29,003 nucleotides of DNA from assembly GCA_004335835.1 (NCBI GenBank), contig RWJK01001532.1:19644-48646 (forward strand), read 5' to 3'. The position numbers and the translations under genes were made by a program. Every line of letters starts with the position of its first letter. Position 1 is the stretch's first letter. Shown here in pieces: positions 709 through 29,003 of this stretch. A model generated the notes under the pieces. It was not told where the DNA came from. It searched no databases and saw only the letters and a list, made by a program, of their open reading frames with translations. This DNA comes from Scenedesmus sp. ARA3. Lineage: Eukaryota > Chlorophyta > Chlorophyceae > Sphaeropleales > Scenedesmaceae.

Positions 709-2231
709 AGGGGCTACCTGGACTACCTGTGCAAGGCCATCTCTGAGGGCGTGAAGGTCAGCACCTACTTTGCATGGAGCTTCATGGACAACTTCGAGTG
801 AGTGCATGGTTCAATTTCTTGCGATGTTTACTGGTTATTTGTGTTTTTTGGTGTTGATGTACCCAAGGTGGCGTGAAGGTCAACACCTACTTCGCATGGA
901 GCTTCATGGACAACTTCGAGTGAGTGCAAGATGCTGCTTGTGCAACATTCTGTTGAATGTTTTTGGGGTGGTGCACCAAAGGTGGTGTGGAGGTCAGCAC
1001 CTACTTCACTTGAAGCTTCATGGAAAGAAAACTTCACGTGGGTTGTTACACCATGCCTTGCACCACGTGTTGGTGTTTGTTGGCGTGTCTTGATGTAAGC
1101 ATGATCATAGCGCACCATGACGTGTCAGCACTTTGAGACGCTTTGCAGGCGCAAGGAGACTTTGCCTGCTAAAGCTAGTAATTTTAGCGCAGTGCAGTGT
1201 AAGCTAATATCTGCCTCAAGGCCTGGGGCCTACTCTGCAGCGTGAAGGCTGCAGCCAGCGCCGCAGCGCCTTTCCGGCGCCACCTGGATGCCGTCACATG
1301 CATTGCTGCTAGAACTCACACAGCTGCGACCGCTGTGGTTTTGTTGCTCTGCAGGTGGCGTGAGGGCTACAGCCAGCGCTTCGGCATCAATCACGTGGAC
1401 ATTTGACCCTGCCGCCATGCTAATGATTCTTGCTGTTGTTGGTTGCCGCATGCTATGTTGTATTTGTGCAGGTGGCGTGAGGGCTACAGCCAGCGCTTTG
1501 GCATCAACCATGTTGACTTTGACTCTCCTGAGCTCACGCGCACCACCAAGGACAGCGGCAAGTTCTTGTCAAAGCACTTCTTCAGGGTCGGCAGGTGCGT
1601 AAAGATCAAGCCAAGGTTCAGTTATACTACGAGCTGATCTGATATGTTACTTAATTAAAACTACACATTTGGGTGGGTGTTGTGTACGTGCATACAAAAC
1701 AACACTAAGGACAGCGGCAAGTTCCTCTCAAAGCACTTCTTCAGGGTCGGCAGGTGAGCTGAATTATCGGCTCGCTGGGCTAGTGCCTTAGGCAGGTTTC
1801 AGTCCTGAGATGTTTGTATTGTATTGTGTTGAATAACGATGAGATTCAACGCACTGCTCTGCCTGTGCACCACACAGCATCCCCCGCTCCTGAGTCAGTG
1901 TGCCTGTTGGCGCTCCTTGTGCAATGTGTGCATGGGTGGTTGTAATCCCCATGAGCCTTGTCTGGCTCCTTTGTGGGTGGGCTGTGGCCCTCCTTTGGTA
2001 ATGTACAGGCAAGCCTGGCATGCTGATCCCAATGTCTGAATCTCTTTGCTTGAGCTCCACACACTGCGGCATACTAACGAGTTGTCCGTCTGTTTACATT
2101 ATATTCTAATGTGCAGGGGTGGCGGCGTTGGCGCGCGCAGGCCCGGCGGCCGCAAGCCTACAAAGGAGACTCCTGCAGCAGCCAAGCCTAAGGAAGCCCC
2201 TGGTGCAGCCAAGCCTGCAAAGCAGCAGTAG
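2..2231 (+). CDS. Family-1 glycoside hydrolase (beta-glucosidase type), 3' five exons; 5' end outside window
   Basis: Probable exons are 2-150, 393-503, 711-797, 1472-1594 and 2117-2231. They join in frame (585 nt, 194 residues plus stop) through GT-AG introns. The joined protein shows C-terminal GH1 hallmarks in order: [19 protein letters not shown], then IMITENG carrying the Glu that is the catalytic nucleophile in this family, then [18 protein letters not shown], then [23 protein letters not shown]1 enzymes hydrolyse beta-glycosides with retention and usually run to about 450-520 residues, so roughly the last 40% is here. Two oddities: a Gly/Arg then Lys/Ala/Pro-rich tail (residues about 157-194) that is unusual for GH1, and partial exon copies in introns 1, 3 and 4. 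Introns 1 and 2 end in (CTG)n tracts running into the acceptor CAG. Family assignment is secure. Substrate and location are not readable, and the exon 4 donor could alternatively lie at 1753/1754 in a duplicated segment. Confidence 0.88.
244..267 (+). repeat. Intron-1 copy of GH1 exon-1 segment
   Basis: A near-identical copy of exon sequence 104-127 (encoding VPWSFYK) lies 140 bp downstream inside intron 1. It diverges abruptly into CAG repeats after the shared segment and has no retained donor. It is the shortest of the junction copies in this gene. Confidence 0.75.
362..391 (+). repeat. (CTG)n tract forming the intron-1 acceptor region
   Basis: About nine uninterrupted GCT/CTG triplets run directly into the CCAG acceptor at 392. 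They take the place of a normal polypyrimidine tract. Confidence 0.85.
670..709 (+). repeat. (CTG)n tract forming the intron-2 acceptor region
   Basis: About thirteen GCT/CTG triplets end in the GCAG acceptor at 710, the same arrangement as in intron 1. Confidence 0.88.
869..1040 (+). repeat. Two donor-side copies of GH1 exon-3 end within intron 3
   Basis: The exon-3 end, encoding [17 protein letters not shown] with donor at 797/798, is repeated twice downstream. The first copy (869-930) has its donor-equivalent boundary at 919 and still reads [17 protein letters not shown] followed by GTGAGT. The second (981-1040) has its boundary near 1037, keeps a GT, but carries an in-frame TGA. Spacings are 122 and 118 bp. 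Increasing decay with distance from the authentic junction is visible. Confidence 0.88.
1231..1412 (+). repeat. Two acceptor-side copies of GH1 exon-4 start within intron 3
   Basis: The exon-4 start (acceptor AG at 1470-1471, encoding [15 protein letters not shown]) has an upstream copy with acceptor at 1353-1354 and about 45 bp of near-identity before divergence. A more decayed copy follows TACTCTGCAG at 1231-1240. Spacings are about 117 and 114 bp. Both copies retain GCAG at the boundary. Confidence 0.83.
1697..1760 (+). repeat. Copy of GH1 exon-4 end and donor within intron 4
   Basis: The exon-4 end encoding [15 protein letters not shown] and its GGCAG|GT boundary (1594/1595) recurs with boundary 1753/1754, 159 bp downstream. 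The copy carries GTGAGC, arguably a better donor than the upstream GTGCGT. Confidence 0.85.
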
Positions 2232-2233
2232 AT

Positions 2234-2335
2234 GCAGCAGCCAAGCCTACTAACGGTACCCCTGCAGCAGCGCAGCCTGCTAAGGAGACCCCAAAGGCAG
2301 CCAAGCCTGCCAAGCAGCAGCAGAAGCAGCAGTAG
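2234..2335 (+). other. Frame-shifted continuation of the GH1 Lys/Ala/Pro-rich tail
   Basis: Just after the TAG at 2229-2231, a different + frame reads AAAKPTNGTPAAAQPAKETP and then a [14 protein letters not shown] end, stopping at TAG 2333-2335. Composition and motif order match the tail encoded in frame upstream. The coding tail therefore appears to have been longer and to have been cut by a small indel, or is joined by unrecognised splicing. Confidence 0.6.
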
Positions 2336-2698
2336 AGCCAGCTTGTAGCAGCAACGGGCTTTCAGCACTTTCGAAACTGGAAGTCCTGGCCTCGCCGGCT
2401 TGAGTTTGGCAGCTGCTAGCACTGTGCTGTGCTCTGACTCTGAAATTACAGAGAGACAGGGCTATTTGAAAAGGGCTAAGCAAAGGGTGCCAGCAGGCAG
2501 GCTTGGATGGTAGTGTGAGAGTAAGAAAACCCTAAACCCATTGTGTAGTCTGTTTGCATACCTTGGCAGGCTGTTTTTGGCAGCAGAGGAACCCAATCCC
2601 CGCATTTGATTTGAGTGGAAGAAGCGTTATTTGACCTTGTTTGACTAGCAGAATAACACGTTGTAGTATGTCAGAATACTTGCTTGAGTACACTGTTC

Positions 2699-2728
2699 CA
2701 CTGTCACTGTAAATTTACAGTGACAGTG
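2699..2728. terminator. Perfect 30-bp palindrome with TGTAA in both orientations
   Basis: The two 15-bp halves (CACTGTCACTGTAAA and its exact reverse complement) abut with no loop. TGTAA occurs at 2708-2712 on + and at 2719-2715 on -. A role in bidirectional 3'-end formation, between the + GH1 gene and a minus-strand transcription unit, is inference. Confidence 0.5.
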
Positions 2729-2827
2729 TGGTTGTAACACCCATCGGCTAGTACCACTGCTGCCGGTCCCTCTGCAAGTCTTTGCGAGAGGTGCTCTTGG
2801 CCTGGCTGAAGGCTAACCACAATTGAA

Positions 2828-2879
2828 GCCAGTGCGCTAGCTAGCTCTAGTGCAGCATGCCAGTGCGCTAGCTAGCTCT
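2828..2879. repeat. Direct repeat, 21 bp, period 31
   Basis: The segment GCCAGTGCGCTAGCTAGCTC occurs at 2828 and again at 2859, followed by T in both. No coding sense was seen. Confidence 0.8.
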
Positions 2880-2930
2880 CTACTAGACTGACTGAGTCAC
2901 TGGCCGAGTCCTTGATGGCTGATGGAACAG

Positions 2931-3007
2931 GTGGTTGCCCAATGAGCCTGTCATTGGCGCAAATACGGGCTGTGTTCCCGTCGTGCAACACACTTGTGTT
3001 GTGCACA
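2931..3007 (+). repeat. Dispersed repeat, copy 1
   Basis: This shares a GGTTGCCCA(A/G)TGAG block and an ACGGGCTGTGTT-CCGTCGTG core with 25746-25812. It shares the core region with the 45-bp insertion at 25632-25676. The end, with ACACACTTGTGTTGTG, can form an imperfect stem. It is probably a short non-autonomous element or part of one. Confidence 0.6.
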
Positions 3008-5412
3008 AATAGTGAAGCCGTTTGTGAAGATTGTTACACAGTTGCCAGCCCAGCTAGCCACGTCCAAACTACAAGAAGCTCATGAACATGCAACACAACA
3101 GTCACCCTGTCCAGAAATTTAACATCATACATGCAGGCTGATTGCTGACTACCTTCTTGCCTGGAATCACAGGAATGTCTGCAAGCGGGATAATGAAATA
3201 GTGCTCCCTCCCCTTCCCCCTTCGCCTGTTCATTCAGCCGCTCCTGTGGGGCACGGGGCCGATGGCGACGTTGCTATGGCTTAAATGGTAACATGATGAT
3301 GATGATGATCATACATGCATTTCTCAGTGAGGCCTGACACAATAACACCAGCAACTTGCTGATGCCTTTAAGGCATGAACACCATGAACACCAGGACAGC
3401 CATGCAGATGCATGGGCTGATTGAGGTGCGCAGAACCTGCTGCTTATGCGTATGGCTCCAAATGGAAGAACACCACGCAGCACTGCCGCCTGACTCTGCA
3501 GCAGTGCAAGGTACAGCCAATTTAGCATTGCAGCAGCCATTGCTGCGGGTGGCTGTACCCAAAGCACTGCAGTAGTGCACTTTGAACAAGTCGCTGGTGA
3601 TACAGAGCAACACATAAAGGGGGTAGATGGCGCAGCAGCGAGTGCAACACAAGCTGTTGCCTCCAATGCTACGTAAAAGAATACGTATTAAATAGGTATT
3701 TGACGTGGTATGTCGAGCATTGCAATGTGGGCACAAAGCAACACCCGAGGTTTGACCAGTGGTCATATGTAACAAAATATGCGTATGCAGGCAGTGAAGT
3801 GCCGGCATGTGTACAACAAAACATATAAATAATTGCAGTAATTGATAGTGGTAGTGGTGATTGATGTCGTAACCACAATGTACGGGTAACAGCAGTAGGC
3901 GACAGCAGCCAGAGAGTCAACCAGCAACAGGTGCTGCCCCTGCACGCGGGCATGCCGCAACTTGCAGGAATGGCCCTGCTTGCAAACCGCCGCTCCTGCA
4001 AAACAACCAGAAGTGTTTTGCAAGGCACTTCGCAGCTTGCAGGAAACGTCGCCTGCTTGCAGGAAACACACAATCACGAAGCAGTTGCCGGTTTGAGTGC
4101 CATCACAACCCTGCAACCTCCACTGTATCCTCTGCTGTATGCTGCACTTGCAACGTTGCTGTTTGCAAGGCACCAGCAAGCAGTCAGGCTGGAAAACCAT
4201 AGAGTAAGGTAGGTGTGATGTATGTGTGCTGGCAGCTGGCCAGACAACAAGCCACCAGCAACACCAGCACACAGCAAGGTGACACAGCATGAGCAGCCAC
4301 TTGCTGCCATGCTGCTGCTGATGCAACCCCGACATACACAGCGAACCAGCCAACAGGCGCATGTAGTTTCCCGCATCACACACACAAGCTGTCGGTCATC
4401 AAGCGAGCCAGTGCCGGTCAACGGTCAAACCTCCCGCACAACCTAAACTACTGGTCCTAACCTACGGCGTTCATATGATGAACTCAAGTACACGGCGAAG
4501 CCTAGCTACCTAAACCTAACTACTGTGGATTGGGATCCAGCAAGGCAAAGCTATGCTGCAGCAGCAGCAGCAGCGCCACGTGACTGCTGCAGCGTACATC
4601 CGCGGACAACACACTGCATGCAGTTGTTTTGGGCAGTGCATAAGAAACCTGGAGAGAACCAAAGATCAGCTGAGTGTGCCGGAAGTACGCTGTGCCAGGC
4701 GCCCCCAACAGCGTACACGCTACAAGCTGAAACAGCCTGCAGTCACGTCTCCACCAAAAACAAGTGCTGCAAGTTCCAAAAGGTGTAGTCAAAGCTGTGG
4801 TCAAACTGACACGGTGTTTGAACAACACGCTGAGGTAAGGCACACGCACCGAGAAGGGATGAACAGAGCACGTCATGCTCATGTGCACAGCCTCCTGCGC
4901 AGCTTGCACCATGCCGAGTGCTGCAGCAGCTGAACACTCTGCTACCTCAATGCATGCGCCTGCACCTGACAAGCAACCACAAACCACAGCAATGTCTTCT
5001 CCGCCTGCTGCCTCCTGAATGCTGCCTCCAACATATGCCACTTTGCTGGCTGCCTTGTGAGCATGCCACCAACATGCGCAAGTTGGTGGAGTTGGTGCTC
5101 AAGACGCGCGCCGCAACGCATGTGGCCAAAAGGACTGCAGCTGGCAGCATTGCTGCAGACTCCACAAATCGCTGAGGCGCATCGACACTTAAGCAGTGGA
5201 GCGCACTCAGTCGTTGCGCCCCACCGCAGCATACTGGACGATGCCTTCCAACAAGCGTGTGCACAAACTCAACACCCACTGATGCTCTGCACACATGGCC
5301 AGAGTCAAACATGTGCCGCTGTTAATTTTTAAACGCCGCCGCGGTCAACCAGAGCATGCCTATAGAAAGCCTACACAGGAACCAGTCGGTCAGCGCTGCC
5401 CCAGCAGCAGCA

Positions 5413-5688
5413 TCTGTAGCTATCTCAGGGCAGAACTACTGCCGCCTGCTGCACCTATGCTGAGTATGTTGCGTCCCCACGACCTGTCCTGCAAAGTAAC
5501 GGCCCCTGTAGCTACCTCAGGGCAGAACTACTGCCGCCTGCTGCACCTATGCTGGGTATGTTGTGTCACCACGACCTGTCCTGCAAACTAACAGCCCCTG
5601 TAGCTACCTCAGGGCAGAACTACTGCCGCCTGCTGCACCTATGCTGGGTGTATTGTGTCACAGCGGCCTGTCCTGCAAACTAACGTGG
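5413..5688. repeat. Tandem array, 92-bp unit, three copies
   Basis: Units begin near 5413, 5505 and 5597 and share CTCAGGGCAGAACTACTGCC and GACCTGTCCTGCAAA-type blocks with a few substitutions. The period is exactly 92 bp between corresponding sites (5417, 5509, 5601). Since 92 is not a multiple of three, the array is unlikely to be coding. Confidence 0.9.
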
Positions 5689-6130
5689 CAGCAGCAGCAG
5701 CAGCCAGCATGCACACACGCGCATGTATGCGCAAGCAGTAACATGCGCAACACATAGCTAGCCGTGCGTGACTGCTGGGTAGGTCAAGCTGCAGTCAGAA
5801 GTGATGCAACAACAGCAGAACGCAACGTGCAGGAGGCTCAGGACCCTTGTGTCCTGGCTACTCGTCAGCTACTGACATGAAACGTCACAAACTCAAGCGC
5901 TGCAGCCTGTCAACTACCTAAGCATGTGCCTGTGGCTGTGCTGCGACGCGAAGCCATGCAAAGGTCAAAATCGAAAATCACTGCTGCCTGCCGCCAAACC
6001 ACATGCAAGTGAGCCTGACTGGGTTGTGCTGTCTATGCAGGCCAACAGCTAAAGGCCTAGCAACTGATGCTGTGTGAGGCAGCACACGTGCTGAACCCAC
6101 ACTGTGTGCCAGATCCAAGTGAAGCAAATG

Positions 6131-6360
6131 TCTGACTGACTACCAGCTGTGCTGCAGGCAACAGCCCCCTAAGCAAACACCCAAACAGTGTGCATAATGT
6201 CCTGTAACTGAAGCAGCTGCTAACTGACTAGCACCTACTACTGTGTGGGACTGTGCCTGTGCTAACTCTCACAGAGTGTGCACGAACCCTGCACCTGAAC
6301 CAACAGCTAACTGACTAGCACATATTGCTGTCTACAACCGCGCCTGTGCTAACACCAACA
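6131..6360. repeat. Degenerate tandem array, about 87-bp unit
   Basis: TAACTGACTAGCAC recurs at 6221 and 6308, each followed by a related block ending in GCCTGTGCTAAC. A weaker third unit is near 6134. Units are diverged in between. Confidence 0.6.
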
Positions 6361-8205: not shown

Positions 8206-8510
8206 CAGCAGCATGCCGCCCTGCTCTGCATGTTGAGCCAGGAAATCAGCACCACAAGAGCTGCACTGCACTGCTGCACATCCTATCCTAGTGGCAGCAT
8301 GCCGCCCTGCTCTGCATGTTGAGCCAGGAAAGCAGCACCACAAGAGCTGCACTGCACTGCTGCACATCCTATCCTAGTGGCAGCATGCCGCCCTGCTCTG
8401 CATGTTGAGCCAGGAAAGCAGCACCACAAGAGCTGCACTGCTACAGTCAGCAGCATGCCGCCCTGCTCTGCAGAATAAGCCTGGCAGAATAAGCCAGGAA
8501 ATCAGCAATA
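8206..8510. repeat. Tandem array, 86-bp unit, about 3.5 copies
   Basis: The block CATGCCGCCCTGCTCTGC starts at about 8212, 8298, 8384 and 8454. The first three units are nearly identical over 86 bp, including a TGTTGAGCCAGGAAA segment and CACATCCTATCCTAGTGG. The last units are truncated (70 bp), then rearranged. Confidence 0.92.
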
Positions 8511-9193: not shown

Positions 9194-11073
9194 GCTAGCC
9201 TGCACAATTCGCCAGGCAGCACTGACAGTGATGGGCCGGTGATCTGGCAGCTGCACACAGCCCAGCTACAACCAAGCCCTAGGTGATGTGCAAGCGCAAC
9301 ACCGTTCTACACTGCTCGTTGAACAGAGCAAGTCTCTCAGCAAGGAGCATGCAACAGCAAGCAGATACACAACAGTCACCTACGCAGCACGTGGCATCAG
9401 CAGCAGGAGGTACCCTGCTGCGCCATCGACATTGCAGAACAAAGAAATTGATAGTAGCGAGATCAGCTGATGAGAGCTGTCGCGAGTCAGGTCAGAAGCT
9501 GGTAAAAGCTGTCACGAACTAGCCACCACCAATGCAAACAGCCGGGGGAGAGGTACAGGGGGCGGCTGTCATTGAAGCTGGGTCGCAGCCACAGGCGCAA
9601 AAGCAGCCACATTACTACTACTACATCTGCTGTGAGTTGTCAAGACCTCGCATCAGTGACATAGCATACTAGTGTTGCGCAAGGATACAATACCACCCAT
9701 TGTGATGATAGTAGCAGACGCAGCACTCGGCACAGTCATGCGATACAGTCTGTTGATATGCCTATTGCGCTAACACTGCATTGCTCTGCCAGCCACACAA
9801 CCAGCAGTGAGCATTCACAAGAGCGCAAAGCTATGCCTTTGCCCCAAACATACACGCACAGGACGATTCTCGACACCCCTGGAGCCAAGGCCATAGGTGC
9901 ACTGCCATGTTGTCAGGCAGTCAACCCTAGTTTCTACAACTCAACACACACCTACACACAGGCCAGCAGCATGCATGTGCATGCCGCACATCAGCAACAT
10001 GCAGTGCGTGCCGGCAGCAGGACAGCTCACAGGCAGAGGCGGCTGCATTCAAGGGGCAATCATCATGTGCATCAATCATGGTGCAACCCCGGTCGGTGAT
10101 GTGTCAGTTCTGCAGTCAAGCAGTCAGCACTTGCAGGACACAGCCAGCGCTGCACCAACAGCTGCTGCGCCTGCCAGTGCCTCACCTGCCTGCTGTCATG
10201 TGCCCAAACAGTGTCATAAAGAGTCAGCACGCTGTGTCCAGCGTGTGGGCTGAGCTGCGCACAACAGCAGCAACAGCTGAGCAAACATATGGGCGCTATT
10301 CCGCCGACACAGCCAGGCACAGTCATATTCAAGTCCACGGTCGCGTCAGCGTCAGTCCAAGTCCCACAGTCAAAAGAGCAGAAGCGCGACCCACGCTAGT
10401 GAACCAAGAAACCAACCGCAAAGGCAATAACACCACACCAAGCCATGCCATATCAAAGCCATGCCAAACAACACCCAGCACATGCGCTACATGCAACTGC
10501 AGGAGGGTGTGACAGCAGCAGTGCCTGCACCAGTAGTCCAAAACTACGTGCTGGCAGATATGCCACTGCTGCAAAGAAGAGTCAGGGCTGGTGCAAGGCA
10601 GTGCAGCACAACCAGTCAGTGTCGAGGCAGCCGAAGCACCAACGGTAGAATGCTGCCAGGCATGTGTTGAACACGGCTGTAGTAATGTATCACGTGACCT
10701 GCAGCACATGCACACCCTCCTTGCAGTGCGTGCACTCGCTCTGTCAAGTCAGCAGTAACATCCTCACTGCATGTCGCCATGATGAAGCCCATGCCTACTG
10801 GTATGCAAGAAGCACGAGGCACTCCTCCCCTGGCACTCAAACTGGCGCTCCTTTTGTTGATGCACCAACATGCATGCACCATGGTAACACCCTACGGGAT
10901 TTCCCTGCAGGCACAGGAGCACCATCACCGCCAGAACACAGTCGATGCAATGCCCCTAGACAACGGCACTTCCTGCAAGACGTCCACAGAGCCACCTTTT
11001 CCTAGCAAGCTTTCCTGCAAAGCATTGCTGCCTCTACGCGCTGTTGTGGTCCTGCAAGCGCGACTGCAAGCTG

Positions 11074-15516: not shown

Positions 15517-18500
15517 GGGGCCAAGCCCGAGAGAGGCCAGCACATTCGAGCCAGCAACAGACAGCGGCTCCCCACAGATCAGTGCAGTCGCTGCTGCCGC
15601 TGCTGCTGCCAGCGCATCTTCTTCTGCATCTGTGCCGCCAGCTGCTGCTGCTGCTGCTGCACGTGCTGATGGCGGCTGCACTGGCAGGCCTGCCTTGCTA
15701 GCAGCAGCGGCTTCCAAGCCCATCTCCTGCTGCAGCGCCTGCTGCTGGTGCAGCAGCTGCGACTGCAGATCATCCAACTGCCGCTGCAGCGCTGCTTGCT
15801 GAGCCCGCTTTGCAATCTGCTGATCACTCAGCTGCTGCTCAAGGAGCTGCTCCTCATACATCAGCTGAATCAACTCCCCCAGAAGCTGCTGCTTCGCTGC
15901 CACAGCCTCGGCGGCTGTACCGCCCCCTCCAGCAGTACCAATTGTGCCGCCTGCAGTACCGGCCGACAGTGCAGGGCCAGCAGTCATGGCTGCTGACTTG
16001 CTGCTACCGCTGCCAGGCCGCGACGCAGAGAGCGGCAGCTGCTGCTGCATGCCTGCCAGCCCGCGCTGCATACCAAACTGCTGCTGCCGCTGCTGCTGCT
16101 GTAGCGCCTGCAATCGCCCTGCAAGTGCAGCATCACCTGCTAAAGAAGCGCCCTGAGAGACGCTTCCTGCTGCACCACCTGCAGCGAGCTGCGCAGCAGC
16201 AGCAGCAGGGCCTCCACCCGCGCCGCCAAAGCCATAATCCAGCAGCTGATTCAGCAGGTGATTACCGTCCATGCCTGTGCTCGCTGCTGCTGCTGCTGCT
16301 GCTGCCGGCTGGCGGCTGTTGCCAGCAGCACCACCACCAGCAGCAGCCACGCTGCCCAGTAAGCTATTCAGGGCCTGTTGCAGCACACTGCCTGCATCGT
16401 CAGCAGCAGCAGCACCAGCAGCTCCCCACACGTCATTTCCAGGACCTAGCCCAACAACCCCAGCCGCCCCGAGCCGCTGCTGCTGCTGCTGCTGCTGCGG
16501 GGATGCAGCAGCAGGCTTGTACGTCACGCCAGGGACGCCTCCAGGTGCTGCAGGCGCTTGATTCCTGGCCCGCAGAGCAGCAAGCGCCTGCTGCTGCTGC
16601 AGACTCAAGGGTGCCGCCACTGCTGCTGCTGCTGCGGGGTCTTGATCCATGCCTAATGCACCACCCCAGCCGCGCTTCTGCCCATGTAAACCCTGCTGCC
16701 CAAAGCTGCTGCTGCCGCCCTGCATCTCCTGCAGCTGCTGCAGCATGCTGTGCTGCTGCTGCTGCTGCTGCTGGCCGCCGTACTGCTGCTGTCCATTGTA
16801 CTGCTGCTGGTTGCTGTACTGCTGTGTAGCGTGCGCTACAGCACTCAGCAGGTACAGGTCATCAGGGCCTGGTGCTGCTGCTGCTGCTGCTGCTGCTGCC
16901 GCCGCTGGGTCCTCTGCATACTTTGTCATCGCCTGCTGCTGCTGATGATGATGCTTCTTAGATCGCTTCTGAGGCCGGCTTGCAGGAACAGGCGCAGCAG
17001 CTGCTGCTGCTGCATCCCACTCCATAGGATCAGCTGCAGCACCATACACATCGCTGCCATAGCCAGCAGCAGCGCCCGCACCCGCAAGCATTGCAGTGAG
17101 CCCTGCCAGGCCGCCGCCGTAACCTCCGTTGCCTGCTGCTGCTGCTGCTGCTGCTGCAGCAGCATCAAGGCGGGCCATACTGTTGGCCCTGCCTGGTAAA
17201 CCGCCGCCGCTGCGGTGGTGGTGCTCCGAAGCAGATGCTCCCTTTGACCGCTTGGCGGCTGGCGCGCCGGCGCCGTAGCTGTTACTTTGACCGCTGGTCA
17301 AACTGCCGTAGCCGCGGTCAAACTTGGCTGACTGGCGGCCGGAGGCGGGCTTGAGCTTGGCTGCTGCGGGCTTGCGGTTTGACTTGAGGCCCGCACGGCG
17401 GCGGCTGTTGTGCTTCTGCAGCTGGCTGCGGCAGCTCCTGCAGGACAAAACAAATGATGAAAGCATAGAATAAGATACAGCATTTTGAAGTGTTTGAGAT
17501 CTTGGTGGTGCGGTCATATGGCAGGTGATGCTTCTGCAGCTGACTGCGGCAGCTCCTGCAGGAGGAAACAAACAAGAAAAAAAGAGTGAAGGATACAGAA
17601 AGTAGAGATGAATTGAGATCATGACAGAGCCGTCATGTATCAGATGGTGCTTCTGCAGCTGGCTGCGGCAGCTCCTGCAGGACGATACAAACGTGGCTAC
17701 AAATGTGAATTTGCATGATAGGAGTTGCAGGATGTAATCTCACGTGCGACAACATGGTTTGGTCATGTAGTAGATGAGGCTTCTGCAGCTGGCTGCGGCA
17801 GCTCCTGCAGGGCGACAATAACACTAACAGCATAACAATGCAGCATCTCATCTGCTATAACTAACAGCATGACCATGTGCTGAGTGCAGAACAGCACCCC
17901 AGGCAAGGTGTGCAGAATGTTGATGAGCAGACTCGAGCCGATCCCACCAACACCTTCCAGCGCACCACTTGCTGCCATCAAACAGCATGACCATGGACTG
18001 AGTGCAGAAAAGCTCACAATCCCACATGTGCAGCATTTTGATGTTATATCTGCCTGACTTGCATAATCCCACCGCCACCTCTCATCGCACCTCTTGCTGC
18101 CATCAAACAGAGACACCTTCTCCAACCGGCCACACTGCTGGCACCACCGCACCAGGATCGTGGGCACCTTCGCTGGCTGCTGCTGCTGCTGTGCTGCTGC
18201 GCCTCCAGCGCTGCTGTCGCCTGCTGCAGCAGCAGCACTGCTGTCCTGCGGCTGCTCAGCTGCCTGTGAAGAAGCTGGCTTCCGTTTGCGCTTGCGCGAG
18301 GAGCCGGGAGAGACCTCCTCAGCAGCATCAGCAGCAGCAGCAGCAGCAGCGGTGCTGTCTGCGGCAGCATCCTGATCTTGCTGCTGCTGCTGCTTGCTGC
18401 TCTGCTCCTGCTGCTTGTCCTCACCACCATGCTCATCAGCAGCACCGCCTGCATCCGCATCTGCTGCTGCTGCTGCTGCTGCATCCGCATCTGCTGCTGC

Positions 18501-18573: not shown

Positions 18574-18617
<44 letters not shown>

Positions 18618-20178
18618 GCCGCTACTGCTGCGCGGCTTGCTGCTGGTGCCCTGGCCCGAGGTATCACCACCCTGCTGTGCCTCACCCTCACTGCCTGGCT
18701 GCTCCTCTCCTGCAGACTCTGCCGCTGCTGCTGCTGCTGAAGCATCCTGTGCTTCTGCATCTGCCTTCTCCTCTTCTCCCTCCTTCTCCTGCTGCTCCAC
18801 CCCTTCCTCCACATCCCCCTCATCTGCTGCTGCTGCTGCTTCATCTGCAGCATCGCCTGCTGCAGCCTCATCAGCATTGTCCTCATCTGCTGCTGCTGCT
18901 GCCTCTGCTTCGCGCTGAAGCTTTGCAATGGCTTTTGGGTCGGGGATGCAGATCGCGTCAGCTGATACGTGATCCGCGCAGATCTTGTGCCGCTGGTTGT
19001 ACATGCGCTGCTCCAGCAGGTTTGCACAGCAGCCTGGGACCTGCAGGCAACATTTTGAACAAAAAAAAACAGCTTGTGGGTTTGATGCTTTAGCTGGTGA
19101 GGCATCTGCCATTGGTTGTACGTGCGCTGCTCCAGCAGGTTGCTGTGCAAACCTGGAACCTGCAGGCACAAAAGTGAAACACAATGTGTGTGATGATGCT
19201 TTTGTTACTTGTTGCTGGTGCGGTATATGCCGCTGGTTGTACATGCGCTGCTCCAGCAGGTTTGCGCAGCAGCCTGGGACCTGCGGGCACGAACGTAACA
19301 CACAGTGCTTGTCATTTTGGCGCTTTTGTTGCTTGTTGCTGTGCGGTGTATGTCGCTGGTTGTACATGCGCTGCTCGAGCAGGTTTGCACAGCAGCCTGA
19401 GACCTGCAGGCACGAAAGTAACACATTAAAACATAACATAACAGGTGCTGGTGAGGTTGGAAAAGGAGTGAGTGCAGGAGGCTGGGGGTTGCCTGCTGGG
19501 AGCACGGCAGCAGTACAGCTGCTGCTTGCAGGATTCGCATGGGCTGGTGCGCTGTTGCTAGAAACTAGCCCAACATGCTGCAGAGCAAATGTAACATTAT
19601 TTGAAATGGTGGCGCTGATGAAGTGGCTTGATGTAGGGCCTGGCAGCTGGACACTGCCTGGGGCAGGCAGCAGCGCAGCAGCGCCGGGGGTTACTTCCCA
19701 GCAATGCCTGCTGTGCAGCCACAGCCAGGCCTGCTACAGCCTGCTGCAGGATTGGGATAATACAAGTGTTCCAAACACGATGAGGCAGGCACTGTGCCGT
19801 TGTGGCAGTGCTGCTTTGCTGCAAGAGCCCAACGGCAGCTGATGACAACGCAGGTCTGCTGGCTCATGGGAGCGCCCGATGCAGCAGCACGCCGCGCACG
19901 ATAGTGTAACACTGCAGTTTCTGCGAGTTCAGACCGAACGAACGCAACCCTGGGGCCCCAGCGTGGCTGGAGCAATAAAGCCCACCATTGAGCACCCCAC
20001 CAACCTGGCATTGCGGAACCTTTTTCGGCTTCTCTTGCTTCTCCCTGACCTTCGAAGAATCATCCTGCTCCTCCTCGGGTGGTGAAGTGCCTGCAGCCTC
20101 GCTGGCAGCCTGCCCTTCTGGAGCTGCACTGTCCTCTGCCCCTGCTGCCTGCTCTGTAGCCGCTGCATCCTCCGCCAT
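14767..20178 (-). CDS. SBP-domain (SQUAMOSA promoter-binding-like) transcription factor with a split DNA-binding domain
   Basis: Three exons are proposed: 20178-20005, 19040-18091 and 17437-14767, about 1264 residues. Exon 1 ends PKKVPQCQ. Exon 2 opens VPGCCANLLEQRMYNQRHK then ICADH, giving zinc site 1 as C57, C62, C79, H82 with family spacing. Exon 2 ends ILVRWCQQCGRLEKVSLFDG-SK. Exon 3 supplies RSCRSQLQKHNSRRRAGLK, giving C358, C361, C377 of site 2 and the basic NLS. All joins keep frame. SBP proteins bind GTAC-core DNA in the nucleus; algal and plant members include copper and developmental regulators. Two departures: about 275 residues separate H82 from C358 (normally under 20), and E365 replaces the usual His. 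Exon 3 is mostly poly-Q, poly-A and Gly, with a probable coiled coil (around LLEQQLSDQQIAKRAQQAAL, about 15725-15870) and no ankyrin repeats. Start chosen because exon 1 supplies the first Cys and an in-frame stop lies upstream. Confidence 0.85.
17520..17815 (-). repeat. Three acceptor-side copies of SBP exon-3 start within intron 2
   Basis: The authentic acceptor (TCCTGCAG|GAGCTGCCGCAG, exon start 17437) has three copies farther upstream in the gene, with start-equivalents at 17555, 17674 and 17804. Spacings are 118, 119 and 130 bp. Each preserves CCTGCAG plus about 28 bp of exon (ELPQPAAEA or SCRSQLQKH depending on frame) before diverging. Confidence 0.92.
17842..18010 (-). repeat. Donor-side copies of SBP exon-2 end within intron 2
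   Basis: The exon-2 end CTGTTTGATGGCAGCAAG with donor at 18091/18090 recurs with its boundary near 17966 (AAGTG|GTGCGC). A decayed third unit ends near 17842. Each is preceded by CACTCAG(T/C)(C/A)CATGGTCATG. Spacings are about 125 bp. With the acceptor copies they fill most of the 653-bp intron. Confidence 0.82.
19100..19430 (-). repeat. Three acceptor-side copies of SBP exon-2 start within intron 1
   Basis: The exon-2 start (19040) encoding VPGCCANLLEQRMYNQRHK is repeated with start-equivalents at 19160, 19280 and 19403, spacings 120, 120 and 123 bp. All keep GCAG|GT at the boundary. The copies at 19280 and 19403 keep the zinc-site residues and reading frame. The 19160 copy is frame-shifted. 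The intervening parts of each unit are also related to each other. Confidence 0.93.
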
Positions 20179-20649: not shown

Positions 20650-20681
<32 letters not shown>

Positions 20682-20955: not shown

Positions 20956-21145
20956 ATGCATCCGGCCCAACATGCAGCAGCACTGCCACAAGGATGGCAG
21001 GCGGCTTGGAGTGAGCAGCATGGCAGCTGGTACTATTGCAACACAGCACTGGGCCTCACCCAGTGGCACCCACCTACAGCAGCAGCACCAGCAGCAGCAC
21101 TACACAGCAGCGCAGCAACAGTACAGCCTGCTGAGCAGCAGCCCT

Positions 21146-21203
<58 letters not shown>

Positions 21204-21564: not shown

Positions 21565-21596
<32 letters not shown>

Positions 21597-22456: not shown

Positions 22457-22491
<35 letters not shown>

Positions 22492-23022: not shown

Positions 23023-23056
<34 letters not shown>

Positions 23057-23193
23057 ACGGCGCGAATGGCGGCAGCAGCAGCAGCAGCAGGCTGGCGCTG
23101 GAGCTGTATGGTGACCTGGCTCGCTGGTGTGACCCGAGGTCATTAGAACAGGCACTGGTGCGCGCACGCGCAAAGAAGCGCAAGGTTGGCTGA
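20956..23193 (+). CDS. WW and GYF-like domain protein, poly-Ala/Gln rich, C-terminal NLS
   Basis: A single 745-codon ORF. Residues about 10-40 form a WW domain: LPQGWQAAWS, then WYYCNTALGLTQWHPP, with W14, YY26-27, N29, W37 and P40. Residues about 101-135 resemble a GYF fold: FWYHDPWGRLLGPFSLQQLI then GW, although the terminal GYF triplet is replaced. Both modules bind proline-rich ligands and are common in splicing and transcription adaptors. A long Ala/Asp-rich middle carries 49-residue repeats (DDAVVAAATASLQEV type; 21601 and 21748) and an IGPDAGANIV repeat block (22081-22310). The conserved C-terminal part reads FNKYAAAVLEGLPPDDEAVQ, then VMLTKDPRSGRL, then ELYGDLARWCDPRSLEQAL, ending AKKRKVG, a typical nuclear import signal. 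A nuclear adaptor role is inference. The WW call is firm; the GYF call is moderate. Upstream exons cannot be excluded. Confidence 0.75.
21601..21895 (+). repeat. Internal 147-bp coding repeat in the WW-GYF gene
   Basis: The block starting GCTGA(C/T)GACGCAGTTGT recurs at 21601 and 21748, exactly 49 codons apart. It encodes DDAVVAAATASLQEV-AG-PANLQEADTADA followed by poly-Ala. The partial duplicate downstream carries one unit. Confidence 0.85.
22081..22310 (+). repeat. IGPDAGANIV repeat block
   Basis: At least five imperfect units, (I/V)(G/P)(P/R)DAGANIV and A(A/V)NIG, are encoded in succession. The downstream partial duplicate has only one or two (24048-24120), so copy number has changed since duplication. 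Confidence 0.8.
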
Positions 23194-23255
23194 CTCAGCG
23201 TCACTAGGGTGTGCAGTCAGCAGATGGCACAGTGTGTGCTGGCACGGCGTTGCGA

Positions 23256-23430
23256 GCGGCAGGCTATTTGCTGCTGCAGCAGCAGCTGGCGGTGCAAATG
23301 GCAGCAGCAGCAGCAGGCTAGCGCTTGAGCTGAGCGGTGACCTGGCGCGCTGGTGTGACCCGCGCTGGTGCACAGCTCGCTGGAGCAGGCGCTGGTGCGT
23401 GCACACGCAAAGAAGCGCAAGGTTGGCTGA
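23256..23430 (+). repeat. Extra copy of the WW-GYF C-terminal cassette
   Basis: A diverged copy of 23030-23193 encodes LALELSGDLARWCDPR, then, after a small rearrangement, an NLS-type AKKRKVG and TGA at 23428-23430, 237 bp after the first TGA. The downstream flank (GTGTGCAGTCAGCAGATGG) is also duplicated. Confidence 0.85.
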
Positions 23431-23616
23431 TTCGGCGTCACTGCGGTGTGCAGTCAGCAGATGGCGCAGCTGTGTCTGCTGTAGCCCTCCTTTCTGTGCA
23501 TCAGCGGGGTTGGTTGGTTGCAGCCTGCAATACTGAGTATGGGAGTCTGGCGTGGCTTACAGTGGCGAGTGCATGCGCGCAGTGTTAGTGCAGCTTGCCA
23601 GGAAGCTGGAGTCGTT

Positions 23617-25053
23617 GCGGCAGCAAAGCTTGAAGCAGCAGCAGATGGTGCAGCAAAGCCTACAGAAGAAGCAGATGATGCAGCAAATCCTGCAGCAGCA
23701 GCAGCTGCAGCAGAGGAAGCGGTGCTGGCTGATAGGGGTGCCGTCCATGTTTCCAGTGCTGATGCAGCAGCAGCAGCAGGGGCAGCAGCAGCAGGGGCAG
23801 CTGACGACGCAGTTGTAGCAGCTGCTACAGCATCATTGCAGGAGGTGGCAGCGGGCGCTCCTGCAAACCTGCAGGAGGCAGACACTGCAGATGCAGCTGC
23901 AGCTACCCCGCCTGCAGCAGCAGCAGCAGCGGCGGCAGCAGCGGCAGCGGCGCCAGCTGCTGCGGCTGCAGATGTCGGCAATGCGGCCCAACAGAGCAGC
24001 CATGCAGCAGATGACGTTGCACAAGATGGTGTCTCTGCTAATGGCGCTGATGCAGCAGCAGTCAACATTGGGCCTGATGCAGGTGCCAACATTGTGCCTG
24101 ATGCAGCAGCCAATAGTAGCCCTGGTGCAAGTGCTGCAGGCGAGCCTAGTATCAATGCACAGTTGATAGGTGAGGGCCACAACAGCGGCGGCAGCAGCAG
24201 CAGCGGCGGCAACCGGCTGGTGCTTGCTGACCTGTTGGGTGATGGAGCGCTGCTGCCTTCATTGAAAGCAGCTCGCAATCACCAGCAGCAGCAGCAGCAG
24301 CAGCATAAGGCAGTGGCACCACCGGCTCCTGTTTGGGAGGCGTGGTGTGCGAGCTACAGCAGAGGCAGCAGCAGCAGGGGTGCTTACTCAGCTGCAGCAA
24401 GAGGCGTGCAGCAGCACCCTGTGCAGGGCACTGCAGCGCTGCTGCAGCAACAGCAGCAGCAGCAGCAGCAGCAGCACCACGCGCCGGCAGCAGCAGCTCC
24501 GCGCGCAGCTCTGCCTGCCAAGGGTGCTGCAGCGCATGGGGGGCAAGTAACAAGGCCCGGCGGAGGGTTTAACAAGTATGCAGCTGCGGTTTTGGAGGGG
24601 CTGCCTCCAGATGATGAGGCGGTACAGTTTGCACAGATGGCTGCAGCACAGGGCTACAGCTTGCAGGAGCTGCTGCTGCAGCAGCAGCAGTCAGGCAGTA
24701 CAGTTGTTACTTTAAATAACAGTGGCGGCTCCAGTCAGGGGCTGCAGCAGCAATCATCATCAGCAGGTGGCATGGGGGTGATGTTGACTAAGGATCCTCG
24801 CAGCGGCAGGCTCACTACTGCTGCTGCTGCTGCTGACGGTGCAAATGGTGGCAGCAGCAGCAGCAGCAGCAGCGGCAGCAGGCTGGCGCTGGAGCTGTAT
24901 GGTGACCTGGCGCGCTGGTGTGACCCGAGGTCATTAGAACAAGCGCTGGCGCACGCGCAAAAAAGCGCAAGGTTGGTTGATAGCACCTTCAAAGTTGATA
25001 GAGTAAGGAATGAATTGTGTCAGGGTCGTGCTGTGTTGGCAGATTCAAAATAG
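23617..25053 (+). pseudogene. Partial tandem duplicate of the WW-GYF gene lacking WW and GYF domains
   Basis: From 23617 the sequence parallels 21414 onward (AAAGCTTGAAGCAGCAGCAG), with fewer Ala and DAGANIV repeats, and continues through the FNKYAAAVLEGLPPDDEAVQ and VMLTKDPRSGRL blocks. The ORF is open from 23518. It lacks the WW/GYF-encoding 5' part, and a 4-bp deletion in the last cassette shifts frame. It therefore ends in an unrelated stretch (QKSARLVDSTFKVDRVRNEL and on) with stop at 25051-25053 instead of KKRKVG. It is probably a relic, unless spliced to another 5' exon. Confidence 0.72.
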
Positions 25054-25484
25054 ACCCTATGATTGTCCTCATGTTGATGATCTGGGCGCTAGCCACGCAA
25101 CTGTAGAGCAGCGGCCAAGAGAGGCCGGCGCTGGAGCTGTATGGTGATTTGGCTCGCTGGTGTGACCCGAGGTCATTAGAACAAGCGCTGGTGCGCGCAC
25201 GCGCAAAGAAGCGCAAGGTTGGTTGATAGCACCTTCAAAGTTGATAGAGTATGGAATGAATTGTGTCAGGGGTTGTGTCAGGGTCGTGCTGTGTTGGCAG
25301 ATTCAAAATAGACCCTATGATTGTCCTCATGTTGATGATCTGGGCGCCAGCCACGCAACTGTAGAGCAGCGGTCAAGAGAGGCCACCGCTGGAGCTGTGT
25401 GGTGACCTGGCGCGCTGGTGTGACGCGAGGTCATTAGAGCAAGCGCTGGCGCGTGCACGCGCAAAGAAGCGCAAGGTTGGTTGA
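24981..25484 (+). repeat. Tandem units of about 246-258 bp carrying the C-terminal NLS cassette
   Basis: The unit starts TAGCACCTTCAAAGTTGATA (24981 and 25227). It passes through TGTAGAGCAGCGG(C/T)CAAGAG and then ELYGDLARWCDPRSLEQAL-type or ELCGDLARWCDARSLEQAL-type coding, and ends GCGCAAGGTTGGTTGA at 25226 and 25484. Both units restore the KKRKVG ending lost in the partial duplicate. Confidence 0.9.
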
Positions 25485-25631
25485 TGCGGCGTCACTGGGG
25501 TGTGCAGTCAGCAGATGGCACAGCTGTGTCTGCTGCAGCCCTACTTAATGTGCATCATCGGGGTTGGTTGGCTGTCGCAGTATGTGGGTGCTGGTGTGGC
25601 TCACAGTGGCGGGTGCATGGACGCAGTGTTA

Positions 25632-25676
25632 TTGGCGTGAAAACGGGCTGTGTTCCATTCGTTTAGCACACAAACT
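25632..25676 (+). mobile_element. 45-bp insertion with 6-bp GTGTTA flanking duplication
   Basis: At the paralogous site (23582-23587) GTGTTA is single and continuous with GTGCAGCTTGCC. Here it appears at 25626-25631 and 25677-25682, with 45 bp between. The inserted sequence carries the AACGGGCTGTGTTCC core also found at 2931-3007 and 25746-25812. An empty site plus target-like duplication suggests insertion of a very short element; deletion in the other copy is the alternative. Confidence 0.55.
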
Positions 25677-25745
25677 GTGTTAGTGCAGCTTGCCAGGAAG
25701 CTGGAGTCCTTGTGGCAGCTGGCCATTCCTGGTATTGGTGGGTTC

Positions 25746-25812
25746 AATGGTTGCCCAGTGAGTCTGCCATAGGCTCCACAACGGGCTGTGTTACCGTCGT
25801 GTCACACAATTG
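25746..25812 (+). repeat. Dispersed repeat, copy 2
   Basis: It matches 2931-3007 in two blocks (TGGTTGCCCAGTGAGTCTG and ACGGGCTGTGTTACCGTCGTG), with divergence between them. It lies only about 70 bp downstream of the 45-bp insertion that shares the second block. Confidence 0.6.
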
Positions 25813-26646
25813 GCGGCGCCAGCTTCAGCCCTGCTTACATGTCGTGGAATGAAAACTCTCCCTTTACACCTTCAAGTTGTGTTGGCTACGGCAGGCTCTT
25901 GGTCTTGTACGGCAGGCTTCAAGTTTAACTTCAACAAGTTGTTGTCTGCACATGCGGAGGCTCCCACTGGGCAGCTGAGCAGCATTCATGCTCTTGACAT
26001 TATGCATGCTTTTGTGGGGTGTTGGGAGCACGTATAGAGGTGAAATAAGATCATGTTCTGATAAGCTGGATGATAAGCTGCGTGACTTACGTTGGACCAG
26101 CTGGTCGACTCAGTGCAGCACATCCGTCTCTAAATGACAGCGCCGCTGTCATCCCCCATGCGGCAGGGGGGAACCTGCTCTGAGCCAATTCAACTTTGCC
26201 CAACTGCGGCAGTTACCCATGGCTCTGTTACAATGGGCATTTGCCTTTGAGGTGCTTTTGAAGTGGTATGTGAGGGTACCACATGTCGGAGCTTGCACAC
26301 CAGCTAGATTCTGTCACAGAAAGGCAGTAACCTGCTTCGCTTCTTGATGGGGCCCACCGTCCTCCATGCACTGTGCTGCCGTGACATAATATATTTCATG
26401 ATTTAAGCTTTTGAGTTCAGCGATACTATAGTGTCTTGGCCCACGTGGCAGGGCCAACCAGGCGGTAGTGCAAAAACCCTGCAGACAGGTGTCACAGGGT
26501 GGGACCTTTTGCAGCGTGCAGTTGATGTGCAGCCACGTTTCCTTGCCACACAAGCTGAAAAGTTGAATGTCAGTTCCCCAGCATATTTCTTTATAGTTGT
26601 TGCGTGCTCCTACAAGCAGAACAGGGCAGCAGCCCCGATCGCAAGC

Positions 26647-29003
26647 ATGTCCTACCGCGACAGGGATCGTGATGAGCCATACAGTAGAGATAAAGGGTCT
26701 AGCCGCTACTCCTTTGAAAAGAAGGCCGATGCTGCGCCCAAAGTTTTCGTCGGCAACATTCCCTACACCACCTCGGATGAAGAAGTGAAGGCGCACTTTG
26801 AAAGCGCTGGCAGAGTGCAGGAGGTCCTGGTGCGTGTCGCGTTCGCTTTGGGTCGCGGGCAAGCCAGCAGCTCGGCAGGGGAAAACGGAGTTGGCACAGC
26901 AGCTGTGTGCTTCCCGTTGGCAGTCTGAGCAGACCCATCACAGCGTGTGCTGCCAATATTGAATAGTCGGCGCTTCAATACTTATCGGTGCCCGCCCTGC
27001 TGTCGCAGATCCCGCGTGATCCGGAAGGACGCATCAAGGGCTTTGGCTTCATCACTTTTGAGGACTTCGACAGCATGGAAAGGGCCATCAGAAAGGTGTG
27101 TGGCTTGCTGCGTACGCCATATAATCCAGGAAGGGCAACCAGCGTCTGTCCATCTCACAAACAGGGGTGCTGTTTTCAAAAGGACCACGACAGCAGCAGT
27201 GCCGGGCAGCAGCAGTGCTGGGAGCAACACCATTCCTACCTTGTCAGCTGTCCATCAGAAAATAATATACGTGTTCCACATTGCTTGGTATGTCAAAAGC
27301 GCTTTGCAATTACTATGTCGTCTGGGATGCCGCGTTGGAGTTGGCTGGCGGCAGGCAGGTCAACACGCTGGTCAAGGTTGTCCGCTGGTAGCAGCGAATT
27401 GTTGAGCGGTAGCTGGAGAAATGCTTTTCAAATTCAGCAGAGCTTTGCATGGTGCGGATTACATGCATGCATGCGCTGTCAATGAGGCACAACACACATG
27501 CCAGCTTGCAGGACATCTCTCCTTCCACACAGCTGCGCAAATAGGCCCTTATAAGGATGGTGCATCTGCAAGCACCTGCGAACTGGGACAAATGGATGTC
27601 AGGAATGGCTTGCAGGACACGTGCTTGCAGGAGCTGTGCTCAATGGCTTGCAGGACATGCTCTCACAATTCGGCAGTTATTGCGCAGCAGCATCAACACC
27701 ATCTCTACCTGTCGGTATCTGCAAGTGGCTGTGGTACAATCAGCCCCTCGCTGTTGGAAAGAGTTTACTTGCTGCTAATGGTGTGCATCTTCAGTGGGAC
27801 TGGAGGGAGAGTAAGTGACGGGTCAACGTTATAACCAAGGGACTTGGGGCGCACTGCAGCATTGACACTGGATGGTCTTTTCTGCTGGTGGAACATCGCT
27901 CCATCCATTCTGGCTGCGTGGCATGTATGGTGCAAACGGGGCCGTTGCTCAATCACACTAGGCTGCTCTGGGCAAGGACAAACAGATATTTGGAGTGCGG
28001 CAGGCGCCATACCAGCACACCTAGCAGTGCTACAGGTGCTATGCTACAGGTATTCGCCCAAGTACTGGTCAAGACGCAGGTACCGTACTCTGCAAGGCTT
28101 CCTGTTGCCTATGAGCATTGCCATGAGCTGATCAATTGTCCAGAGCGGCCACTTTGGAGAACAACTATTGTCCACGCAACCGGGGCATATGCTGTAGTCC
28201 TGCCCACCAACAAGTGCAGCTAGTGCTGGTGTTATTCTACATCTACTCCATCGCCCCGACTGGTGCCGCGTTACAGATGGACGGCAGCAGCCTGCTGGGC
28301 AACACGCTGCGGGTGGACAGGGCCAATGAGCGCAAGGAGCGGCCAGCCTTCGACAGCAGGGGGCCACCACCCAGCAGGGGCTATGACGGTGAGCGTGTGA
28401 TGAGCTTTGCATGGTTGATTGTGTGCGCTGGTCTGTGTTTTGGGGTCTGCTGTTGCTATTCTTGTCTGTTTGCGTGTCGTGTGGGCCTCTGGCGTGGCAA
28501 GGAGCGGCCAGCCGTTGACAGCAGGGACCACCACTGAGCATCAGCTGCAAAGGTGAGTGTGCTTTCGGTGTGGCTGTGTGTCTTGGGTGGCGGCGGGTGT
28601 TGCTGTTCATTCTGCCATATACCTCACTCCTGCATCTGCGTGCATGTTACATGTATTTGATGTGCAGACAGCCGCGATGGAGGCGGCTATGGTGATTGGG
28701 CAGACAGCCGAGGAGGTGGCGGCTGCACTGGTGTGGCTCACCTTAGGGACTTGCTCTGCTCCATTCTTCAATGTATTGATGCTTGTGTACTGCTTGTGCA
28801 GACAGCCGCGGTGGAGGTGGCTACGGCGGCGGCCATGACTATCTGCAAAGCCTCTCACCAGTGCTTGCACGCCTTTGAAAAGTGTGTATGCTGCTGCTTG
28901 AGCTGCGCAGACAGCCGCAGTGGAGGCGGCTACGGCGGCAGCCATGGTGGCGGCGGCGGGGAGCGGCGGGAGCTGAAGTGGTTCTGCCAGCCATCTCACA
29001 ATT
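26647..29003 (+). CDS. Glycine-rich RRM RNA-binding protein, 3' end beyond window
   Basis: Exons 26647-26829, 27009-27095 and 28277-28388 join in frame. The N-terminus is Arg/Asp/Ser-rich (MSYRDRDRDEPYSRDKGSSR). One RRM follows: RNP2 KVFVGNIP (residues 32-39), RNP1 KGFGFITF (71-78), and the terminal strand NTLRVDRANER. Acceptors TCGCAG and TTACAG and donors GTGCGT, GTGTGT and GTGAGC support the borders. Downstream are Gly-rich alternatives, each opening DSR-GGGY: 28668-28691 (a 24-nt phase-1 micro-exon), 28802 onward (stops after about 25 codons), and 28921 onward (open to the window end, GGSHGGGGGERREL). The family binds RNA in splicing, stability or translation; the Gly-rich tail resembles cold-inducible/GRP-type proteins. 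Intron 2 (1181 bp) holds GCTTGCAGGA repeats. Exons 1-3 are firm; the C-terminus is not. Confidence 0.83.
28495..28560 (+). repeat. Copy of RRM exon-3 end and donor within intron 3
   Basis: The exon-3 segment AAGGAGCGGCCAGCC through the donor (28388/28389, GTGAGC) recurs with boundary 28552/28553 (GTGAGT), 164 bp downstream. The copy would read KERPAVDSRDHH then stop. The following intron stretches are also similar. Confidence 0.8.
28661..28960 (+). repeat. Three acceptor-side units encoding DSR-GGGY in RRM intron 3/C-terminus
   Basis: Three acceptors, GCAG|ACAGCCGC, lie at 28667, 28801 and 28920, spacings 134 and 119 bp. Each is followed by about 24-40 bp of Gly-rich coding sequence (DSRDGGGY, DSRGGGGYGG, DSRSGGGYGG). 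Confidence 0.88.

Follow-up and report, generated by a model that had tools for sequence, protein, structure and literature searches.

The 29,003-nt stretch of contig RWJK01001532.1 of the green alga Scenedesmus sp. ARA3 analyzed here (the window) contains three unrelated genes, GH1 (beta-glucosidase), SBP, and RRM, whose introns carry reiterated copies of the genes' own exon-intron junctions. The phenomenon extends beyond the window: approximately one in five exon edges in a 222-kb sample of the assembly has a copy, splice site included, in the neighboring intron. Many arrays combine near-identical exon-derived cores with strongly diverged spacers. A possible explanation, to which we give about an even chance, is recurrent local tandem duplication across splice junctions with later homogenization of the exon-derived cores, probably by gene conversion.

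The sample comprised 33 pieces (221,694 bp) of an assembly of 87.27 Mb in 1567 contigs. Genes were called by a small hidden Markov model (HMM) gene finder trained on the fetched sequence, which predicted 293 introns with the donor consensus AG/GTGAG or GTGCG and the acceptor consensus TGCAG (the slash marks the junction). Among its calls are the GH1 junctions 797, 1472, and 1594 as well as SBP junctions 18091 and 17437. The GH1 junction 797/1472 is consistent with the Tetradesmus obliquus protein P0121 (DNFE/WREGY), to which GH1 is 95% identical, with the best local alignment covering 53% of the joined query; all other junctions are predictions of the gene finder. A Pfam scan of the raw open reading frames matched only one of 10, SBP.

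Junction units of 45 exon and 12 intron nt were sought in the 420 nt on the intron side at a score of at least 18. From 600 predicted junctions, 440 were usable after exclusion of low-complexity units and those shorter than 37 nt, and 438 were scored. At donors, 54 of the 225 predictions had a copy of their own junction; at acceptors, 41 of 213 did. For comparison, units taken from other genes scored in 1/1061 and 3/1008 cases, reverse complements in 1/225 and 1/213, and searches of the exon-side flank in 16/223 and 18/212. For exons of at least 100 nt, where gene calls are safer, copies accompany 28/135 donors and 29/133 acceptors, compared with 1/631 and 1/611 for units of other genes.

The initial annotation, made from the window alone, implied that such copies are enriched near junctions in general, and this was borne out. 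When the donor unit was stepped along the same longer exons, copies were found for 1/75 units at -120, 4/102 at -80, 18/123 at -45, 27/134 at -20, 22/137 at 0, 7/135 at +40, and 10/127 at +80; the same series for acceptors was 3/80, 6/104, 20/131, 29/133, 32/142, 20/133, and 17/141. Copies are most frequent for the approximately 50 exon nt adjoining the junction. Independently of junction units, and with simple repeats masked, the sample contains 292 direct repeats at a spacing of 40-300 and a score of at least 18, compared with one in a single Markov control; the window contains 68 merged repeats at a spacing of 20-400 bp, compared with 3, 0, and 4 in three locally shuffled versions. A chance origin of the repeats is rejected by these controls. 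Repeats cover 34 of 293 donors (mean for shifted positions 20.9, standard deviation 4.0) and 38 of 307 acceptors (22.2 and 4.0). Their coverage is highest on the exon side (-50 to +10 for donors, -20 to +50 for acceptors) and rises again approximately 60-140 nt inside the intron. The copies thus cluster near junctions, and donors show this more sharply than acceptors; local duplication is also present throughout introns, although less often.

Two features attributed to the arrays have to be revised. The similarity had been described as centered on the junction; it sits on the exon side and falls off approximately 10 nt into the intron, and therefore duplication alone does not account for the pattern. 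A spacing near 120 bp had been given for the junction copies; it is not special to junctions. In the sample, 100-140 bp is the commonest spacing of junction repeats (30/77), but exon-intron repeats (19/52) and intron-intron repeats (33/102) share it. A second peak at 240-260 is present for junction (13/77) and intron-intron (12/102) repeats and is not clear for exon-intron repeats (4/52).

The GH1 arrays, all on the + strand, are as follows:

711-797, +: exon whose 3' end is reiterated, donor GT at 798-799 (gene finder; protein P0121)
748-806, +: donor core, original, 50 exon and 9 intron nt (direct-repeat search)
870-928, +: donor core, intronic copy 1, 97% (direct-repeat search)
984-1042, +: donor core, intronic copy 2, degenerate, 66% ungapped, 3 nt longer
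1240-1261, +: acceptor copy 2, a 22-nt remnant, 91%
1341-1403, +: acceptor core, intronic copy 1, 86%
1458-1520, +: acceptor core, original, exon start 1472 (repeat search; gene finder)
1541-1597, +: next donor core, original, exon end 1594 (repeat search; gene finder)
1700-1756, +: copy in intron 4 of the donor core 1541-1597, 93%, spacing 159

The units that the initial annotation had placed in GH1 intron 3 were found there as direct repeats, spaced by 122 and 114 (donor) and by 117 and 118 (acceptor); the donor copy in intron 4 was absent from its list. The acceptor copy at 1341-1403 has four differences from the exon over 45 exon nt, every one at a third codon position. The intronic copy at 870-928 encodes N, like the public protein P0121, where the window exon has S; judged from these sequences, N may be an ancestral state or a trace of conversion or of haplotype mixing. 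Positions 1118-1198 in intron 3 have 80-88% matches on eight other contigs and represent a dispersed repeat within the junction array.

The SBP arrays lie on the opposite strand:

17411-17444, -: intron 2 acceptor core, original, exon start 17437
17529-17562, -: intron 2 acceptor core, copy 1, 97% over 34 nt
17648-17681, -: intron 2 acceptor core, copy 2, 100% over 34 nt
17778-17811, -: intron 2 acceptor core, copy 3, 97% over 34 nt
17941-17985, -: intron 2 donor core, intronic copy, 87%
18066-18110, -: intron 2 donor core, original, exon end 18091 (repeat search; gene finder)
18988-19046, -: intron 1 acceptor core, original
19107-19165, -: intron 1 acceptor core, copy 1, 83%
19228-19286, -: intron 1 acceptor core, copy 2, 97%
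19351-19409, -: intron 1 acceptor core, copy 3, 95%

All four acceptor units described for SBP intron 1 are present, spaced by 119, 121, and 123. In intron 2 the acceptor copies (spacing 118, 119, and 130) and the donor copy stand, whereas a further "donor unit" proposed near 17842 shares mainly the upstream spacer and has no clear exon core; this third SBP donor and the GH1 acceptor remnant at 1240 are the weakest of the units originally proposed. Copy 1 of intron 1 (19107-19165, - strand) has GGTTTGCACAGC where the exon has its reverse complement, GCTGTGCAAACC. The sequence suggests a local 12-nt inversion, resembling the product of a template switch on a hairpin. A 348-nt SBP query against the 87 Mb matched itself and three neighboring copies only, in a search that scores the best candidates only. 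Among five SBP paralogs read, donor-like copies occur in one, L030 (C1557:200400-201400), and the other four have none; in L030 the copies AGCAACGGT stand at a spacing of 62, and a third lies farther on. A protein search with a short, inexact SBP query returned nine candidates, none at E <= 0.001.

The RRM gene contains the following units:

28332-28388, +: exon end, original, predicted donor 28389 (repeat search; gene finder)
28497-28552, +: copy of the exon end, donor after 28552, 75.5% over 53 aligned nt, spacing 164
28661-28703, +: acceptor core
28795-28837, +: acceptor core
28904-28946, +: acceptor core, probably the original (nearest to the exon body; predicted)

The donor at 28388, its copy near 28552, and the three acceptor cores were confirmed, at spacings (164-165 for the donor, 134 and 109 for the acceptors) that range more widely than the 114-134 bp previously given. 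A weaker fourth acceptor match is located at 28697.

The contrast between core and spacer was analyzed in window profiles beside junctions for all 88 hits with a score of at least 20. Of the 81 hits whose alignment crosses the splice dinucleotide (GT or AG), 75 retain it. Cores are at least 93% alike in 22 donor hits, for which the best-shift identity at intron positions +20 to +40 is 0.55 (null mean 0.45), and 0.14 of 20-nt windows reach at least 0.8, whereas a neutral simulation of donor-spanning duplication with such cores yields 0.868 and 0.777, respectively. For donor cores below 93%, the observed values are 0.56 and 0.20 versus 0.685 and 0.319 in the simulation. In SBP intron 2, the four 34-nt cores are 0.94-1.0 alike and the spacers 0.51-0.67 (null mean 0.50, 95% null 0.58). 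In SBP intron 1, the exon core is 0.97 alike to copy 2, 0.95 to copy 3, and 0.83 to the adjoining copy 1; the spacers are 0.49-0.73 alike, with 0.73 for those of copies 1 and 2 (95% null again 0.58). Spacers were compared with each other for the 35 hits that met a spacing of 80-170 and limits on spacer length. Since 13 of them exceed the 99% null (15 exceed the 95% null), some arrays are diverged tandem duplications. Beside cores at least 93% alike, all 11 spacers score below the value predicted from core identity. The copies of an array share breakpoints, with graded divergence of their spacers.

The coding character of the copies was assessed on 48 of the 88 hits, after removal of copies lying by more than one-fifth within a predicted exon and of repeats of one place. 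Differences from the exon at codon positions 1, 2, and 3 number 39/608, 38/613, and 104/611. A gap in the exon part or a new stop is found in 17 of the 48 copies. None of the 20 gaps seen in the cores is a multiple of three, which is weak evidence, as the alignment scoring penalizes gaps of three or more. Copy spacing modulo 3 (19/15/14) displays no frame preference. Frameshifts and the even spacing modulo 3 reject coding as a general rule. The copies are noncoding as a rule, yet something slows the loss of their cores.

A comparison with public proteins was possible for a PDI gene upstream of the window on the same contig (C1147:1-19643; L009 and L010), in which several short exon segments are repeated. 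A query built from its predicted exons, with the repeated segments and a stray stretch omitted and one residue guessed, matched T. obliquus P0002 at 100% (rounded) over its whole length. By this neighboring gene, the window DNA belongs to Tetradesmus obliquus or a very close relative. A young PDI array repeats the whole unit, with 166 of 176 nt identical; one full period matches at 117 of 125 nt, 32/33 in the exon part and 85/92 in the spacer. The public T. obliquus PDI proteins P0001-P0004 differ solely by added segments: P0003, which shares the locus tag of P0002 (OEZ86_007219, contigs up to 3.05 Mb), adds VALEHKGKLVM, P0004 adds ALTKFIKKNA, and P0001 adds EERQTVALKGKITKDGLD. With up to two mismatches allowed and the presumed original included, VALEHKGKLVM occurs four times on our contig (10237, 10345, 10470, and 10595) and ALTKFIKKNA also four times (12312, 12438, 12579, and 12700); EERQTVALKGKITKDGLD, searched without its last residue and with the same tolerance, occurs once, at 9702. 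Repetition of two of these three segments on the contig argues against arrays being peculiar to this assembly, an argument that applies to PDI and not to GH1, SBP, or RRM.

The origin of the arrays can be pictured as follows. Local tandem duplication would recur in T. obliquus genes, mostly with segments of approximately 85-150 bp and sometimes of approximately 250 bp. Where a segment spans a splice junction, the outer donor or inner acceptor would stay usable, so that the duplicate drops into the intron and is tolerated. Repeated rounds would then leave donor copies at the 5' end of the intron and acceptor copies at its 3' end. The cores would be re-homogenized by gene conversion with the real exon, itself fixed by coding selection, and the spacers would drift and escape homogenization. 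Splicing would bypass most copies and occasionally use one as an alternative splice site or exon. That arrays are born by tandem duplication is well supported, because the young array repeats its whole unit, breakpoints are shared, and SBP matches are only local. The duplication process may be ongoing, as had been proposed. Gene conversion templated by the exon is favored because core identity is uneven within one array: in SBP intron 1, the near-perfect copies 2 and 3 and the degraded copy adjacent to the exon suit episodic conversion better than uniform selection. A more far-reaching version, in which the real exon continually rewrites degraded intronic copies and so sustains a reservoir of near-perfect spare splice sites and exon ends at about one-fifth of junctions amid spacer turnover, is tentative.

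Several observations weigh against duplication followed by conversion. Conversion tracts were not directly seen. Spacers beside acceptor cores at least 93% alike (15 hits, positions -40 to -20) are less extreme than those at donors, with an identity of 0.64 and 0.33 of windows at 0.8 or more. Twenty of the 35 compared spacers do not exceed the 95% null, leaving tandem ancestry unproven there; conversely, of the 11 spacers whose cores are at least 93% alike, 5 lie above that null and 6 do not. The share of differences at third codon positions (104/181, 57.5%, bootstrap 50.7-65.1) is above the composition-adjusted neutral expectation of 46.7%, calculated with 0.7 of the real exon's third-position changes taken as free; neither neutral nor converted copies should lean so far to the third position. 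The share is 44/71 (62%) for cores at least 90% alike, and a gap or stop is present in only 4 of the 17 copies whose cores are 93% alike or better. This third-position excess hints at some constraint on the copies.

The main rival, unlikely in our judgment, takes such constraint at face value: selection would preserve the copies in the role of spare or decoy splice sites, or of alternative exons by which splicing is tuned. The retained GT and AG dinucleotides and the third-position excess fit it, as do the extra in-frame segments of P0003 and P0004 that are repeated on the contig, given the locus tag common to P0002 and P0003; these isoform records, however, may be mere gene-model predictions. 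Selection is also hard to reconcile with the frameshifts or stops in 17 of 48 copies, with spacing indifferent to frame, and with uneven core identity within a single array, and its action at one-fifth of the sampled junctions would be a heavy demand. Plain tandem duplication with neutral decay, where exon-anchored copies stay visible longer as the real exon is constrained, predicts the exon-side bias, and it accommodates both the arrays whose core and spacer are about equally diverged (e.g., L014 9746 and L007 166) and the donor cores below 93%, which lie nearer to the simulation (0.56 observed, 0.685 simulated). We disfavor it as distinctly unlikely, given the near-random spacers beside donor cores at least 93% alike (0.55 against a simulated 0.868) and the near-identical SBP intron 2 cores between spacers close to the null mean.

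An assembly artefact, in which gap filling or concatenation would have placed a second haplotype's exon ends in introns, seems quite improbable. The available part of one report describes a heterozygous diploid T. obliquus strain (PMC12636532), the UTEX 393 draft was built with 101-bp reads and GapFiller (PMC5255914), N runs (gaps or withheld stretches) are present in the further sequence fetched, and the S/N difference between the GH1 exon and its copy, which agrees with P0121, could be read in the same way. Against this stand the graded spacer divergence among copies with shared breakpoints, the gaps or stops in the same 17 copies, the recurrence of the PDI segments as additions in two accession series, one of them on contigs up to 3.05 Mb, and the window itself, which is free of N. 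One GH1 and one SBP query revealed no second haplotype in the assembly, which could equally mean its removal. Concatenation of reads as the origin is rejected by the shared breakpoints. A mobile introner-like element inserting beside splice sites would account for similar spacing across unrelated genes, and we regard it as highly improbable. Introners leave related sequence in the introns of many genes, whereas units of other genes find practically no match here (1/1061 and 3/1008), every core is the host gene's own exon, and SBP copies were found only locally; the other-gene control and the local SBP matches rule out a dispersed element. Duplication across the junction with subsequent conversion remains our preferred explanation.

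Minisatellites and other local tandem arrays are built of head-to-tail units, are local, and vary in copy number. The algal arrays are alike in all three respects and differ in their bipartite conservation, with the exon core kept and the spacer lost. In tandem exon duplication, a source of alternative exons, exon sequence is repeated head to tail in introns, as it is here, and some public PDI records carry the copies as extra segments. Whole-exon duplicates have both splice sites, however, whereas a window copy covers only approximately 20-60 nt of a longer exon and, in most cases, a single splice site, and the GH1 and SBP cores are parts of predicted exons of 87-1259 nt; short predicted exons outside the window, e.g., 33 nt in PDI, are repeated whole. 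The closest published counterpart is a potato gene in which, according to the available part of the source, tandem duplication crossing an intron-exon boundary founded a new intron (PMC4974935). In both systems the duplicated segment spans the junction and carries the splice signals along; in the alga the copies are adjacent and in the same orientation, as the reverse-complement control confirms. The potato case, as far as that portion describes it, is one duplication that made a new intron, whereas the algal copies lie inside an existing intron, are serial on both of its sides, occur at about one-fifth of sampled junctions, and combine a conserved exon core with a lost spacer. Intron gain via duplication of an AGGT-containing exon segment is described in the same part of that source, and tandem-duplication cases of intron gain in Drosophila in the accessible portion of another (PMC2891723). 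There, as here, a short local duplication provides splice sites; the algal unit differs in that it spans an existing junction and repeats its donor or acceptor rather than an exonic proto-splice site. All window copies carry an existing donor or acceptor inside an existing intron, and the same holds among the hits listed sample-wide. In a search of a partial library with capped result lists, judged by titles, the beginnings of abstracts, and selected passages, no account of exon-intron junctions being reiterated in any green alga turned up.

The window contains other repeats as well. Tandem arrays of a 92-bp unit (5403-5685, three copies, 93%) and an 86-bp unit (8206-8441, 2.7 copies, 99%) are not called exons by the gene finder, and a 258-bp unit repeated 1.8 times (25015-25485, 94%) overlaps predicted exons. 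Between 14900 and 24900, dense CAG/CTG runs are read by the gene finder as poly-Q and poly-A tracts, in two opposite-strand genes.

The mean intron length of T. obliquus is 462 bp, compared with 230, 302, 284, and 270 bp in four other algae, as given in the available part of PMC5966456, and this suggests junction duplication as a source of its long introns. Our own comparison does not support the lengthening that had been proposed: the median length of predicted introns is 178.5 nt at the 88 junctions with copies and 260 nt at the 512 others, although some copies called as exons by the gene finder confound this comparison. The published record of duplication across splice junctions is a single case (PMC4974935); in the 222-kb sample it looks habitual for the genome and lends itself to dating, counting, and testing. 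The arrays also complicate gene models, and segments of this kind already distinguish public PDI records. They offer a natural experiment in splice-site choice, in which one transcript contains nearly identical donors or acceptors approximately 120 nt apart. If the real exon does rewrite its intronic copies, introns would grow and splice options would multiply through a genome-wide mutational ratchet. In this alga, introns may grow by recurrent local duplication and fill with spare splice sites.

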